DNA from: Maribacter sp.
GTDB lineage: Bacteria; Bacteroidota; Bacteroidia; Flavobacteriales; Flavobacteriaceae
DNA: 64,000 bases
Reading direction: 5' to 3'
NCBI GenBank assembly: GCA_029287355.1
Contig: JARFRH010000120.1
Coordinates: 1 to 64,000, forward strand
Below, piece after piece: positions 24,170 to 30,512 of the stretch; within the stretch, counting starts at the first letter, position 1; every line of letters starts with the position of its first letter. The notes below the pieces were generated by a model. It did not search any database, had not been told where the DNA came from, and saw only the letters and a program-made list of their open reading frames with translations. The position numbers and the translations under genes are program-made.

Positions 24170-26941
24170 TTACTTTAACTTCTTGGCAACAGCGACTTCC
24201 TGAAAAGCTTCTACGATATCACCTTCTCTAATATCATTGTAGTTTTTGACTTGCAATCCACAATCATAACCTTTGGCAACCTCCTTGACGTCATCTTTGA
24301 ATCGCTTCAGAGAAGATAGCTCACCCGTAAAGACCACAACACCATCTCGTATCAATCGGATACCAGAATTCCTGAAGATTTTTCCAGAGGTAACCATACA
24401 ACCTGCAATGGTACCTATTTTTGAAATCTTGAATGTTTCACGAATTTCGGCGTTACCGGTAATCTCTTCTTTGATTTCCGGAGAAAGCATTCCCTCCATG
24501 GCATCTTTCAAATCATTGATAGCATCATAGATAATGGAATACATACGGATATCGATTTCCTCCTTATCAGCGATATCCCTTGCATTACCCATAGGTCGAA
24601 CGTTAAATCCAATTACTATGGCATCTGATGCAGAGGCCAATAAGACATCCGATTCGGTAATTGCTCCGACTCCTTTATGAATGATATTTATTTGAATCTC
24701 ATCGGTAGAAAGTTTCTGGAAAGAATCTGTTAATGCCTCCACAGAACCATCAACATCTCCCTTAAGGATGATGTTCAATTCTTTAAAGTCGCCTAATGCG
24801 ATACGTCTTCCGATTTCATCTAATGTAATGTGACGTTGTGTACGGACTGATTGTTCACGTTGCAATTGTGATCTTTTGGTAGCGATTTGTTTTGCTTCCC
24901 GCTCATCTTCCATGACATTGAAACGGTCACCCGCCTGTGGCGCTCCATCCAGACCCAATATCGAGATAGGGGTTGCCGGGCCTGCTTCTTGAACTTCATT
25001 TCCACGTTCATCTTGCATCGCCTTTATCTTACCACTATTGGTACCCGCTAAAACATAGTCACCTATTTTTAAAGTACCATTTTGCACTAAAATTGTGGAT
25101 ACATAACCACGGCCTTTATCCAAGAACGCTTCAACTACGGCGCCATTAGCTCCTCTATCAGGATTTGCCTTTAGCTCTAACAATTCAGCCTCCAATAAAA
25201 CCTTTTCCAATAATTCCTTTACACCTTCTCCGGTTTTAGCGGAAATATCATGTGATTGAATTTTACCCCCCCAATCTTCGACCAATAAATTCATCGCGGC
25301 CAAGCCTTCTTTGATTTTATCAGGATTCGCAGTGGGTCTATCTATTTTGTTAATAGCAAAAACGATTGGAACATTAGCTGCCTGTGCATGGGCAATTGCT
25401 TCTTTCGTTTGCGGCATGATGTCATCATCCGCAGCAATAACGATTACGGCGATATCCGTAATTTGGGCACCCCTTGCCCGCATGGCCGTAAAGGCTTCGT
25501 GACCGGGTGTATCCAAGAATGTGATTTTTTGTCCATCTTCCAATTGTACGGCATACGCACCTATATGTTGCGTAATTCCACCGCTTTCTCCGGCAATAAC
25601 ATTGGCTTCGCGAACATAATCCAATAACGAAGTCTTACCATGGTCGACGTGACCCATTACCGTAACGATTGGAGCTCGAGGTTTTAAATCTTCAGCCGAA
25701 TCCTGGATTTCCTCAATAGCTTCTTCTATTTCAGCCGTAACAAATTCCACTTCATACCCGAATTCTTCAGCCACAATCGAAAGTGTTTCGGCATCTAGTC
25801 GCTGGTTCATCGTGACCATCATACCCAATGACATACACGCCGAGATAATCTCGGTTGTAGAAACGTTCATCATGGTCGCTACCTCATTTGCAGTTACGAA
25901 CTCTGTAACTTTCAAGGTCTTACTTTCTATTTCTTGTATTTCAATATCGGCCTCCGTTTGCATACGGTGCTGATCTCTTTTATCCCTTCTATATTTGGCA
26001 CCTTTTCCTTTCTTGGATTTCCCCTGTAATTTTTCTAGGGTTTCACGTACTTGTTTTTGTACATCTTCCTCAGTAGGCTCAACCTTATTTACAGTTGCAA
26101 AACGTGGTCCTTTTCTTGCTCCTGGGCCATTATTTCTAGCACCTGCTCCTCTCGCACCAGCCTTATTACTGACAATACGTTTTCGTTTCCTCTTTCTATC
26201 GGTGCTATCGGCTTTCTTTGGTTCTTCCTTCTTTTTCTTCGGCTTCTGAAATTTCGTAAGGTCGATCTTATCGCCTAATATCTTAGGTCCGGTAAGCTTT
26301 TGATACTGAGTCGTTAGTTTTTCATCAGCTCCCTTTTCATCAGCTACCTTTTTGTCAGCTCCCTTTTCTTCAACTACCTTTTTGTCAGCTACCTTCTCAT
26401 CAACAACCTTTTCATCAACTACCTTTTCGTCGCTTTCAACAGGCTTCTTTATCTCAACTTCCTCAACAGTGGGAGATACCGGTTCTACAGGCGGAGAAAC
26501 TGGTTCTACAGCCTTGCTTTCTTCAACAACTGCTGTTTTGACCTCTTCTTTGACTACTTCTTTTTCTTTTTTCTTAGGAGTTAAATCAATTTTACCAACT
26601 GTCTTCGGTCCGGCAAGTTCAGCTCTGGCTTTAATGACTTCAGTTTTACCTTGACGTCGTTCTCGAGCCAATCTTCTTTCCTCTTGCTCCTGTTCTAATT
26701 GGATTCTTATCGCTTCCTTTTCCTTGCGTTTCTCCTCACCGACTTCCTTCGACGCAACTTTCTTGCTCATGTCTGTCTGGAACTCATCCAAAAGCACTTG
26801 GTGTATATCCTCAGATATTTTTGTGGTAGGTCGCGCCTCGATATCATGCCCTTTAGAAGCAAGATAATCTACCGCCCTATCCAAAGAAATATTAAGTTCC
26901 CTGAGAACTTTATTAAGCCTTATTGTTGCATTTTCTGCCAT
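24170..26941 (-). CDS. infB: Translation initiation factor IF-2
   Basis: A 923-aa GTPase that places fMet-tRNA on the 30S subunit and promotes subunit joining. The N-terminal IF2_N helix domain (residues 1-55, [19 protein letters not shown]) is followed by about 280 residues of charged low-complexity linker, then the G domain with G1 GHVDHGKT (about 431), G3 DTPGHEAF and G4 NKID. Domains II-IV follow, including [10 protein letters not shown] and the C-terminal [19 protein letters not shown]. The linker contains a 5-residue tandem repeat (see separate entry). It is the third gene of rimP-nusA-infB, 52 nt after nusA. Confidence 0.98.
26318..26431 (-). repeat. 15-bp tandem repeat in the infB linker
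   Basis: Residues 171-208 of IF-2 are about seven imperfect copies of the unit [V/G][V/A][D/E][E/K]K ([19 protein letters not shown] and so on). At DNA level these are 15-bp units alternating forms like TCATCAACTACCTTT and TTGTCAGCTACCTTT. The repeats stay in frame and lengthen the flexible linker only. Confidence 0.85.
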
Positions 26942-26993: not shown

Positions 26994-28226
26994 TTATTCT
27001 TCTAATTCTGCTTTTAGTATACGTACAACTTCCGAAATTGTCTCCTCTTCCAAATCTGTTCTTTTTACCAAATCGTTCACATCTTGTTCCAAGACACTTC
27101 TTGCGGTATCCATCCCTATTTTCTTGAATTCTTCGATAATCCATGCATCGATTTCATCAGAGAATTCGGTCAACTCGACATCCTCTTCAACACCTTCACG
27201 GAACACATCAATTTCATACCCAGTTAATTGACCTGCCAATCTGATATTATGACCTCCCCTTCCAATTGCTTTCGAAACCTCTTCAGGCTTCAAATAAACT
27301 TGAGCGGTCATTTTCTCATCGTTCAATTTTACAGATGAAACCCTAGCAGGACTCAATGCGCGGGTTACCATCAATTGTGGATTGGCTGTCCAGTTGATTA
27401 CATCTATATTTTCATTTCCCAATTCACGAACAATACCGTGAATACGAGATCCTTTCATCCCCACACAGGCACCAACTGGGTCGATACGGTCATCGTATGA
27501 ATCCACAGCAACTTTTGCTTTTTCACCTGGAATTCGCACCACTTTTTTGACCGAAATCAGACCGTCAAAAACCTCTGGAATCTCTTGAAAAAACAACTGT
27601 TCCAAAAATTTAGGTGAACTTCTCGACATAATAATGGCCGGCTTGTTCCCCTTTAATTCTACACTTTCGATAATACCTCGAACGTTATCTCCTTTTCTGA
27701 AGAAATCAGAAGGTATCTGTCTGTCTTTTGGCAAGATAATTTCGTTTCCTTCGTCATCTAAAAGAATAATCGCTTTGTGTCTAATATGATGTACTTCAGC
27801 GGTATATATCTCACCTTCAAGATCTTTAAACTGCTTATAAATAGTAGTATTATCATGCTCATGAATTTTAGAAATCAGATTTTGACGCAAGGCCAAAATC
27901 GCTCTTCTACCTAAATCCATTAATTTCACTTCCTCGGATACATCCTCACCAACCTCAAAATCAGGCTCTATTTTGCGCGCCTCTGTTAGTGATATTTCTT
28001 CATTGGGCTCCTCTACTTCCCCATCTTCAACAACAATACGGTTTCTCCATATTTCTAAATCGCCCTTATCCGGGTTGATTATGATATCGAAGTTGTCATC
28101 CGAACCAAATTTCTTCTTGAGGGCGTTTCTAAAAACGTCTTCCAAAATTGCCATCAAGGTTACTCTATCAATGAATTTATCGTCTTTGAATTCTGAGAAT
28201 GATTCGATCAACGCAATATTTTCCAT
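26994..28226 (-). CDS. nusA: Transcription termination/antitermination factor NusA
   Basis: A 410-aa RNA polymerase-binding factor that modulates pausing, termination and antitermination. Domain order is the N-terminal RNAP-binding domain (residues 1-130, [21 protein letters not shown]), the S1 domain (about 135-205, [20 protein letters not shown]), then two KH domains ([21 protein letters not shown] and [19 protein letters not shown]). It lacks the two acidic C-terminal repeats of the E. coli protein, as is normal in this phylum, and ends with a short helical tail. It lies 13 nt downstream of rimP and upstream of infB, the classic conserved operon. Confidence 0.97.
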
Positions 28227-28239
28227 GAGTCTACTACCG

Positions 28240-28701
28240 TTAAAATTTTAATATAACTTTTGCTTCTTTTATATCAGAAAAATCGATTTCCTGTTTTTTC
28301 TGAACTGTTACTTTCCCTTTTCCAATGGGTTTGGGTTCCCGTGCTTTCCATTCTAAAATAATTCCATCGTCCGTAGCGGCTGTTAGGTTTCCCTCTATTG
28401 TTGCTTCTGAAGTTTTCACTTCCAATTTTCTTCCGACATTCTTTTTATATTGCCTTGGCAGTGCCAGTGGCGCCGTCGCACCTGCTGAAGCTACTTCCAA
28501 AGCAAAATCAACCTCATCCCTATCTAGATTATGCTCAATAGCCCTACTTATCTTCATACAATCCTGAACGGTAACGCCATCATCTCCGTCGATAACCACT
28601 TTTATTTTATTATCTGTTGAAATCGAAAAATCAATCAAAAACAAAGAACTGTCTTCTTCTAAAGCATCGTTCAATAAAGTGGTTACTTGATCCTTCAACA
28701 T
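28240..28701 (-). CDS. rimP: Ribosome maturation factor RimP
   Basis: A 153-aa protein (start at MLKDQVTTLLND; the track version adds ten codons) that assists late maturation of the 30S subunit. The N-terminal alpha/beta domain shows the family motifs LFLIDFSISTDNKIKVVIDG and CMKISRAIEHNLD, with the strongly conserved VASAG (residues 83-87, ALEVASAGATAPL). The second, Sm-like domain covers the C-terminal half (GRKLEVKTSEATIEGNLTAATDDGIILEW). It is the first gene of rimP-nusA-infB. Its about 155-nt leader carries a terminator-like hairpin (see separate entry). Confidence 0.95.
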   Translation of the reverse strand: MLKDQVTTLLNDALEEDSSLFLIDFSISTDNKIKVVIDGDDGVTVQDCMKISRAIEHNLDRDEVDFALEVASAGATAPLALPRQYKKNVGRKLEVKTSEATIEGNLTAATDDGIILEWKAREPKPIGKGKVTVQKKQEIDFSDIKEAKVILKF

Positions 28702-28804
28702 AACTATAATACAAGTTTCAAAAGATACCACTCTGCAGCGGTATTAGTTCGATTTGCCCGTTCCACGTGGCACTATGCGCACTAAGAACGAAAATCCCAC
28801 AAAC

Positions 28805-28834
28805 AAAAAAGAGGACTTAAAAAGGTCCCCTCAT
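28805..28834 (-). promoter_or_regulatory. Terminator-like leader hairpin overlapped by a five-codon ORF, rimP operon
   Basis: On the minus strand, GGGGAC (28830-28825), an 8-nt loop and GTCCTC (28816-28811) form a 6-bp stem with one G-U pair, followed by UUUUUU (28810-28805). It starts about 27 nt after the predicted transcription start and more than 100 nt before rimP. An ATG at 28834-28832 opens the ORF Met-Arg-Gly-Pro-Phe-stop; the TAA falls in the hairpin loop. An attenuator is inferred. Confidence 0.55.
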
Positions 28835-28861
28835 GAATACTATTATATCCGTTCAGTGGTG

Positions 28862-28891
28862 CAAAGATACAACTTTTCTATTATTTCACAA
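28862..28891 (-). promoter_or_regulatory. Consensus promoter of rimP-nusA-infB
   Basis: TTG (minus strand, 28891-28889), exactly 19 nt, TATCTTTG (28869-28862): a full match to the Bacteroidota sigma-A consensus. The gap 28702-29038 holds this promoter, the leader hairpin and, in 28900-29038, only AT-rich sequence upstream of the divergent antiporter gene. There a possible -7-like TACTTTTA is too weak to call. Confidence 0.85.
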
Positions 28892-29038: not shown

Positions 29039-30394
29039 ATGGAAATTTTTACTTCGTATAATCTGATCATAGAAGCATCAGTAATTGTAGTTCTTTCTTT
29101 TTGGTTCAATGGTATATCCAAAAAAACCAATATACCGTCTGTACTAATGCTAATCGTTTTAGGTGTTATTATCAAGATACTCCTTGATATTTTCGCTCCA
29201 AGTGTTCCAGATTTTGAGGGCTCGCTTGAAATTCTAGGCACCGTTGGATTAATTATGATTGTGCTCGAAGCCGCTTTGGAATTAGAACTGAAAAAGGAAA
29301 AACTCATCCCAATCCTTAAATCAATGGCCATTGCCTTAATCGAACTAGTAGGTTCGGCATGGGTAGCGGCATTGATTTTATATCAATTCATAGACGGTAT
29401 GACCATGCAATCGGCATGGCTATACGCTACCCCATTATCGATTTTATCAAGCGCTATAATCATACCAAGTGTAGGCGGTTTGGCCGAAGCTAAAAAGGAA
29501 TTCCATATCTACGAGAGTACCTTTTCCGATATTTTCGGAATTATGATGTTCTATTTTTTAACCGGAGGGTTAAACCCCGCCGAAGATGGAGGTGTGGTTG
29601 GTTTTTCAATCAATTTATTGATTACGATCGTTATTGCAGTAGTCGCGAGTTACGCCATAATATTGATTTTTCAGCGTATTAAAAGCCAAGCAAAACTTTT
29701 CTTATTGATCGCGGTCTTGTTGCTCCTTTATGCAATTGGAAAGAAAATGCATCTTTCATCATTGATCATTATTTTGATTTTCGGACTCATCGTCAAGAAC
29801 ATCAAATTGTTCTTCCCAGGAAAAACAGCCGTGTTCTTAGAAGAAGATCGTATGCATCAAATTTATCATGAGCTTCATATCATAACTTTAGAAACAGCCT
29901 TCATTGTGCGCACCTTTTTCTTTGTGATATTCGGTATCACTATCGTGCTATCTTCTTTGCTCAGCTTCAAGGTGACACTCATCAGTATTTTGATTATCGC
30001 CTCGATATATGCAATACGATGGGTGGTTTTAAGGGTTTTTGTGGGAAACGATATTTTACCACAACTTTTTATTGCCCCTAGAGGTTTGATAACCGTTCTA
30101 CTTTTTTATGCCATACCCAATCAGGCAAAAATCGAAGGTTTTGAATCAGGAATTCTACTCTTTGTTATAATCGCAACAAGTTTGATCATGACTTGGGCCA
30201 TGATCAAAGACAAACACAAAATGGGAACTTTACTCGATGAAATCGATGGGGAGGTTTTAGCGAGAAATAAGGCTGAGGATGCTTTGAATGAGCAAATGGA
30301 AGCCCTTGGGACTTTTGAGCCGGAAGCGGCGGAGAATCCTCAAAAGAATGGTGGTATGCAGATGAATGATATGGATAAAGAACCTCCAGAGTAA
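29039..30394 (+). CDS. Monovalent cation:proton antiporter (CPA family)
   Basis: A 451-aa inner-membrane protein with about twelve hydrophobic segments between residues 10 and 395, and a 50-residue acidic cytoplasmic tail (EALGTFEPEAAENPQ). The arrangement and segments such as IPSVLMLIVLGVIIKILLD, SAIIIPSVGGLAEAKKEFHIYESTFSDIFGIM-type helix breaks and IAPRGLITVLLFYAIP belong to the CPA1/CPA2 Na+(K+)/H+ exchangers. The PRGL pattern near the end is typical of the family. The role is pH and sodium homeostasis; cation preference cannot be determined. It is monocistronic, followed on the other strand by a tRNA gene and its terminator. Confidence 0.8.
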   Translation: MEIFTSYNLIIEASVIVVLSFWFNGISKKTNIPSVLMLIVLGVIIKILLDIFAPSVPDFEGSLEILGTVGLIMIVLEAALELELKKEKLIPILKSMAIALIELVGSAWVAALILYQFIDGMTMQSAWLYATPLSILSSAIIIPSVGGLAEAKKEFHIYESTFSDIFGIMMFYFLTGGLNPAEDGGVVGFSINLLITIVIAVVASYAIILIFQRIKSQAKLFLLIAVLLLLYAIGKKMHLSSLIIILIFGLIVKNIKLFFPGKTAVFLEEDRMHQIYHELHIITLETAFIVRTFFFVIFGITIVLSSLLSFKVTLISILIIASIYAIRWVVLRVFVGNDILPQLFIAPRGLITVLLFYAIPNQAKIEGFESGILLFVIIATSLIMTWAMIKDKHKMGTLLDEIDGEVLARNKAEDALNEQMEALGTFEPEAAENPQKNGGMQMNDMDKEPPE

Positions 30395-30434: not shown

Positions 30435-30440
30435 TTTAAG

Positions 30441-30512
30441 TTGGCCCACAAGGACTCGAACCTTGAATGTCGGTACCAAAAACCGGTGTGTTACCAATTA
30501 CACCATGGGCCA
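30441..30512 (-). tRNA. tRNA-Gln (anticodon UUG)
   Basis: A complete 72-nt cloverleaf: acceptor TGGCCCA/TGGGCCA with discriminator A, D stem GTGT/ACAC, anticodon loop TTTTGGT with anticodon TTG, a 4-nt variable region, and T arm CAAGG-TTCGAGT-CCTTG. No CCA is encoded. The weak U1-A72 end and the UUG anticodon match glutamine tRNA identity. The anticodon stem is CCGGT/ACCGA, so the 27-43 pair is a C-A mismatch, leaving four pairs. A terminator follows directly. Confidence 0.95.

Follow-up and report, generated by a model that had tools for sequence, protein, structure and literature searches.

How transcription enters the rimP-nusA-infB operon is a question raised by a short leader in Maribacter sp., in which a hairpin with a U-run and a five-codon open reading frame (ORF) lie between a promoter and rimP. 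We analyzed this leader within a stretch of 64,000 nucleotides, referred to here as the window, and in the corresponding regions of related genomes. A first-pass annotation of the window had read the leader as an attenuator in front of rimP-nusA-infB, operated by a ribosome that translates the five-codon ORF. The questions were therefore whether the hairpin is a genuine element of this operon, whether the ORF controls it, and, if not, what does.

The hairpin upstream of rimP and its conservation

Direct reading of the minus strand from 28891 to 28805 confirmed that the promoter, hairpin, U-run, and ATG...TAA frame are all present as the first-pass annotation had described them (Table 1). The leader is followed by rimP, with its start at 28701, then by nusA and then by infB, and the identity of these genes was confirmed with Pfam.

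Table 1. Features of the rimP leader and neighboring genes in the window
Feature	Position	Strand	Basis
Promoter: TTG (28891-28889), 19-nt spacer, TATCTTTG (28869-28862)	28862..28891	-	Direct reading
Five-codon ORF: ATG (28834-28832), in-frame TAA within the loop (28819-28817)	28834-28817	-	Direct reading
Hairpin 5' arm, GAGGGGAC	28832-28825	-	Direct reading
Hairpin loop, CTTTTTAA, 8 nt	28824-28817	-	Direct reading
Hairpin 3' arm, GTCCTCTT	28816-28809	-	Direct reading
Predicted terminator hairpin, 8-bp stem	28809..28832	-	Reading, terminator scan, fold, conservation in Flavobacteriales/Bacteroidota
T-run overlapping the stem end (U6 in RNA), predicted 3' end of the short transcript	28805..28810	-	Direct reading
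Terminator-to-rimP spacer, about 103 nt; structure predicted, sequence not conserved	28702..28804	-	Fold of long leader
rimP	28240..28701	-	Pfam PF02576, PF17384
nusA	26994..28226	-	Pfam PF08529, PF13184
infB	24170..26941	-	Pfam PF11987, PF00009, PF04760
Sodium/hydrogen exchanger homologue (antiporter), divergent, upstream neighbor of the rimP leader	29039-30394	+	

Of 4 sites that a terminator scan found in 2.5 kb, where 2.1 ± 1.5 were expected, the hairpin ranked first; taken alone, this is weak support. Fold prediction for the leader to 28801 gave -13.4 kcal/mol (z = -1.6), a value unremarkable by itself, and in the window's clade the stem is less stable than the consensus stem (-9.9 versus -15.6 kcal/mol). 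The full hairpin pattern matched once in the window compared with no match in 100 shuffles. An Rfam scan, which the first-pass annotation had proposed as a check, was run against 4227 families: no family matched the leader at its gathering threshold and none was credible below it, the best subthreshold match being L20_leader (18.4 bits, threshold of 58.7). It is by conservation, and not by these single-sequence scores, that the predicted hairpin is beyond chance.

Upstream regions (150 in number) were collected from related genomes and from a phylum-wide sample; among the 150 related genomes, rimP was found in 127. The motif GAGGG(G/A)(G/A)C, a loop of 2 to 12 nt, a complementary arm, and a T-run were present in 80 of the first 90 leaders. 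The arms GAGGGGAC/GTCCCCTC are almost invariant in Flavobacteriales, and in nearly all relatives the U-run takes the form T4 to T5 followed by AT. The loop and the 5' part of the short RNA are variable across relatives. The other 10 of the 90 leaders carry other hairpins, among them L043, in which GAGCGGAC/GTCCGCTC reflects a two-sided compensatory change, and L077-L081, which have a different stem. In the 80 leaders that share this stem, a TAnnTTTG box lies 11 to 31 nt ahead of the hairpin, and 74 of these boxes read TATATTTG; the length of the spacer from TTG peaks at 19 and 21 nt. The hairpin usually lies 5 to 20 nt from rimP (median, 11 nt), the distance being at most 20 nt in 72 of the 80 leaders and 65 to 176 nt in 8. 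The long spacers are those of the window and seven close relatives, in one of which the spacer reaches 176 nt; the extra sequence is predicted to fold well but lacks conservation between close relatives.

The signature GAGGGGAC-loop-GTCCYCTY-T4+ gave 91 matches in 90 of the 150 related genomes, and the reversed control pattern gave none. Of the 90 carrier genomes, 89 had the exact pattern once only, upstream of rimP; no copy at other genes, as a regulon would have, was found among the 150 relatives. One extra exact copy (G009:C266:77-101) sits at a contig end and probably reflects duplication of the rimP leader during assembly.

Beyond Flavobacteriales, a terminator-like hairpin was found just 5' of rimP in nearly every Bacteroidota lineage sampled. 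Other Bacteroidia and distant families (f24-f47) have other stems, such as GAAGGGAACG/CGTTCCCTTC, AAGTGGGG/CCCCACTT, AATCGCCCC/GGGGCGATT, and ATAGCCCG/CGGGCTAT. Some families outside Bacteroidia have an inverted stem with a C-rich 5' arm, and outside Bacteroidia the stem sequence changes freely. The lineage stems differ yet are complementary, with two-sided changes at 8 of 8 pairs; these stems were registered by hand and extracted because they pair, so that their 100% pairing is by construction and information comes solely from the variety of pair types. Broader hairpin counts across the phylum favor hairpins with a promoter and are descriptive; in the like-for-like comparison, made under the same rule, the promoter-hairpin-gene order was found in 78 of 90 rimP leaders versus 2 of 185 other genes, and those 2 were rimP itself (L199) and infB (L220). 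Among GTDB representatives, at least 80 loci matched; among the matches listed, 71 were from Bacteroidota, with rimP directly downstream in 69 of the 71, and 9 were from other phyla, with rimP downstream in none. In some MAGs (L201, L206, L216, L228, and L230) the hairpin and its flanking A and T runs are symmetrical and match the pattern on both strands, and termination could occur in both directions.

A hairpin at this position might instead end an upstream transcript, or its product, a terminated RNA of about 50 nt that would indeed arise, might act in trans as a small RNA. The upstream gene in the window is divergent, the conserved promoter stands between that gene and the hairpin, and the variable loop and 5' part are unlike a seed region, all of which makes either possibility scarcely credible.

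The five-codon reading frame

According to the first-pass annotation, a ribosome on the five-codon ORF would cover the 5' arm and block termination, so that the operon would be tuned to initiation capacity. The annotation staked this model on conservation of the hairpin and the ORF in the rimP leaders of relatives. That comparison divided the proposal: the hairpin is conserved, and with it the terminator part of the attenuator is upheld, whereas the ORF is not conserved and its role in control is not borne out. An ATG at the base of the stem was found in 23 of 23 close relatives versus 21 of the 57 other Flavobacteriales with this stem (44 of 80 overall) and is thus absent from 36 of 80 leaders. 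A stop codon no later than the loop is found in 9 of the 23 close relatives and in 1 of the 57 others, or 10 of 80 leaders; other frames extend over 11 to 23 codons or reach into rimP.

The close relatives provide what support there is for the ORF, since in all 23 the ATG is invariant together with a TATTC flank, and 9 of them combine the ATG with the early stop. The same flank could form a weak stem with an upstream GRATA. The start context of these 23 leaders is unfavorable: every one has T at -3 and either G or T at -6, and the A that is favorable at both positions by the rule established for Flavobacterium johnsoniae (PMC6847099) is absent from both. Geometry also argues against control by the ORF. 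In L084 and L086 the stem begins 11 nt past the -7 box, which leaves no room for a leader ORF. From the A of the ATG to the predicted RNA end at the U-run there are just 30 nt, so that polymerase would presumably still lie over most of the RNA needed by an initiating ribosome. Because the frame and its stop are unconserved, the start context is poor, and two genomes have no room for it, control by the ORF is not a general mechanism and is unlikely here; as an account of this leader we regard it as very improbable. Conservation, start context, and geometry together led us to discard the ORF as a control element.

The two features expected of a leader-peptide attenuator, a conserved short ORF overlapping the terminator and an alternative antiterminator fold through pairing of the 5' arm, were both lacking. 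The leader resembles the trp and his attenuators in that a short ORF adjoins the terminator; unlike them, it has no regulatory codons, no conserved ORF, and no alternative fold.

Linkage to nusA and candidate sensors

Ten genomes from five families (G018; G095, G108, G119, G127, G142, and G149; G099; G101; and G132) contain nusA and have no RimP match even at E = 10. These genomes are 79 to 99% complete, and the absence of RimP was consistent in all six genomes examined from family f6. All ten have a terminator-like hairpin before nusA with no rimP between, for example GAAGGGGGACATTGTCCCCTTCTTTATT in G018 and AAGAGGGGCGAGCCCCTCTTTTTTTT in G119, and usually a -7 box ahead of it. In the six rimP-less genomes whose downstream region was read, infB follows nusA. 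Since the hairpin lies before nusA in genomes without rimP, the element stays with nusA, and RimP is excluded as a general sensor. No hairpin was found before nusA in two strongly reduced genomes, G105 (by the finder) and G116 (by eye).

In L220 (Crocinitomicaceae bacterium MAG Ww76, JAHEMP010000075.1), infB is split off from the operon, and the gap between nusA and infB is 402 nt compared with the usual 40 to 60 nt. A terminator-like hairpin follows nusA in this genome and is succeeded by a new TAATTTTG promoter and by a second hairpin, GAAGGGGGCCGATGTCCCCTCTTTT, about 121 nt upstream of infB. Inspection by eye of 158 genomes of the phylum showed no further separation of infB from nusA, infB lying near nusA apart from a few contig breaks. 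Taken together, the rimP-less genomes and the second copy before infB point to feedback on nusA and infB, probably through NusA-stimulated termination as in Bacillus subtilis.

In the mechanism that we propose, polymerase would either halt at the U-run and release a short, roughly 50-nt RNA or read on into the operon. Apparently the choice depends on no ribosome and on no competing RNA fold. The leader did not pair with the 5' arm, as an antiterminator would, more than shuffles did; for the 3' arm, pairing of at least 5 was seen in 21% of leaders versus 4% in shuffles when all clades were pooled. A 5-nt match seen by eye in the window's clade, AGGAU with GUCCU of the 3' arm, was rejected as too weak against the 8-bp stem. 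With no antiterminator, sensor domain, or conserved ORF in the leader, what is left is termination that is either protein controlled or constitutive. NusA stimulates hairpin terminators, is encoded in the operon, and has precedents in B. subtilis and Escherichia coli, which together make it the economical candidate. In B. subtilis, autoregulation of NusA works through NusA-stimulated termination in the nusA leader (Mondal et al., 2016, as cited in PMC12288461), and in E. coli transcripts of the rimP-nusA-infB operon rise in nusA termination mutants (PMC6511841). We infer that in Bacteroidota, too, NusA would stimulate termination at the hairpin, leading to less NusA, RimP, and IF-2. An intrinsic terminator between the promoter and rimP-nusA-infB, with NusA as the likeliest sensor limiting its own synthesis, is thus the reading we favor and consider probable.

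The constitutive possibility is a fixed partial terminator that sets a constant low read-through, or gain, for a strong promoter with no sensing at all. Conservation does not extend to any antiterminator, sensor domain, or leader ORF, and a strong promoter and a terminator would suffice for such an arrangement. However, retention across the phylum, near-invariant arms, and persistence at nusA after the loss of rimP suggest selection for regulation, and NusA-controlled leaders are known from B. subtilis and E. coli; we consider a fixed terminator unlikely. A protein-controlled alternative is that the hairpin is bound sequence specifically by another protein, such as RimP, IF-2, a ribosomal protein, or an unknown factor, with effects on termination, mRNA stability, or translation. 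This would account for the near-identity of the arms throughout Flavobacteriales and for their restriction to this operon, but the hairpin persists where RimP is not detectable, the stem is free to change outside Bacteroidia, and the retained U-run fits termination rather than binding alone, and such binding seems to us decidedly unlikely.

Some observations temper the case for NusA. The near-invariant arms exceed the needs of a generic terminator, and another, sequence-reading factor could be conceived. The genes nusA and infB are hardly ever parted, so that feedback by IF-2 is not separable from feedback by NusA. The stem is weaker in the window's clade, and no hairpin was seen before nusA in the two reduced genomes. 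A more specific conjecture, doubtful in our judgment, is that GAGGGGAC/GTCCCCTC constitutes a dedicated, sequence-read control of NusA/IF-2 in Bacteroidia, exerted by NusA or another factor, which accompanies nusA or infB wherever the operon is split.

Relation to known leaders

The closest known counterpart is the rimP-leader class of Naville and Gautheret (2010; PMC2965389), which they describe from Firmicutes and Gammaproteobacteria, with the stem GGGc(...)gCCC and with NusA as the favored sensor. As described there, and as here, a short terminator with a G-rich 5' arm and a C-rich 3' arm lies between a promoter and rimP-nusA-infB, the stem is unusually conserved, there is no antiterminator, and the distance to the gene is variable and short. 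The leader studied here has that position, a GC stem and U-run in sequence form, and no larger conserved sensor or antiterminator; the distance from terminator to gene, 4 to 130 nt in that class, is 103 nt in the window and 176 nt in one relative. The stem differs: here it is GAGGGGAC/GTCCYCTY, and its core GGGGAC/GTCCCC (GGGGGC/GCCCCC in f8) has G-rich and C-rich arms but is not exactly GGGc. Bacteroidetes are not mentioned in the accessible text of that report, nor are rimP-less genomes pointing to nusA. Judged by these sequence features, the element belongs with the rimP-leader class. Like the B. subtilis nusA leader (PMC12288461), it carries a terminator ahead of an operon in which NusA is encoded; there, NusA-stimulated termination is known to control entry into the genes, and the Bacteroidota hairpin is a candidate for the same control.

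A structured, expressed 5' region upstream of rimP was noted in Flavobacterium psychrophilum in 2021, with conservation in other Flavobacteriaceae genera and no Rfam match (PMC9723704, main text). It is very likely the same hairpin; the main text gives no sequence, extent, or mechanism. The rimP-leader class and a structured rimP 5' element in Flavobacteriaceae are thus already known. What is new here is the motif signature, its near-uniqueness per genome, and its phylum-wide presence with changing stems, together with the finding that the hairpin stays at nusA where rimP is missing and the dismissal of the leader ORF. The rimP-less genomes set nusA apart from rimP as the controlled gene, a step absent from the accessible portions of the literature above. 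If the same logic operates in Bacteroidota, a phylum with few studied regulators, self-control of transcription-termination capacity would be a very old and widespread circuit. The presence of a single motif per genome in nearly all carriers, mostly 5 to 20 nt from the gene, makes the element an easy test case for intrinsic termination.

The architecture is also shared with the E. coli metY-rimP-nusA-infB leader (t1, t2). The E. coli leader (L270) differs in having two tandem terminators, AAAGCCCCGATTTATCGGGGTTTTTT and CTGGGCTTTAGGCCCTTTTTTT, upstream of rimP, a tRNA within the leader, and other stem sequences. In the window, a tRNA-Gln gene (30440-30512, minus strand) is parted from rimP by the divergent antiporter gene. 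In many Flavobacteriales, rimP or, in rimP-less genomes, nusA is preceded by the end of a tRNA-like gene, the sequence of which is conserved among them (L038, L062, L068, L089, L090, L271, L274-L278, and L298), an arrangement that recalls metY before rimP in E. coli.
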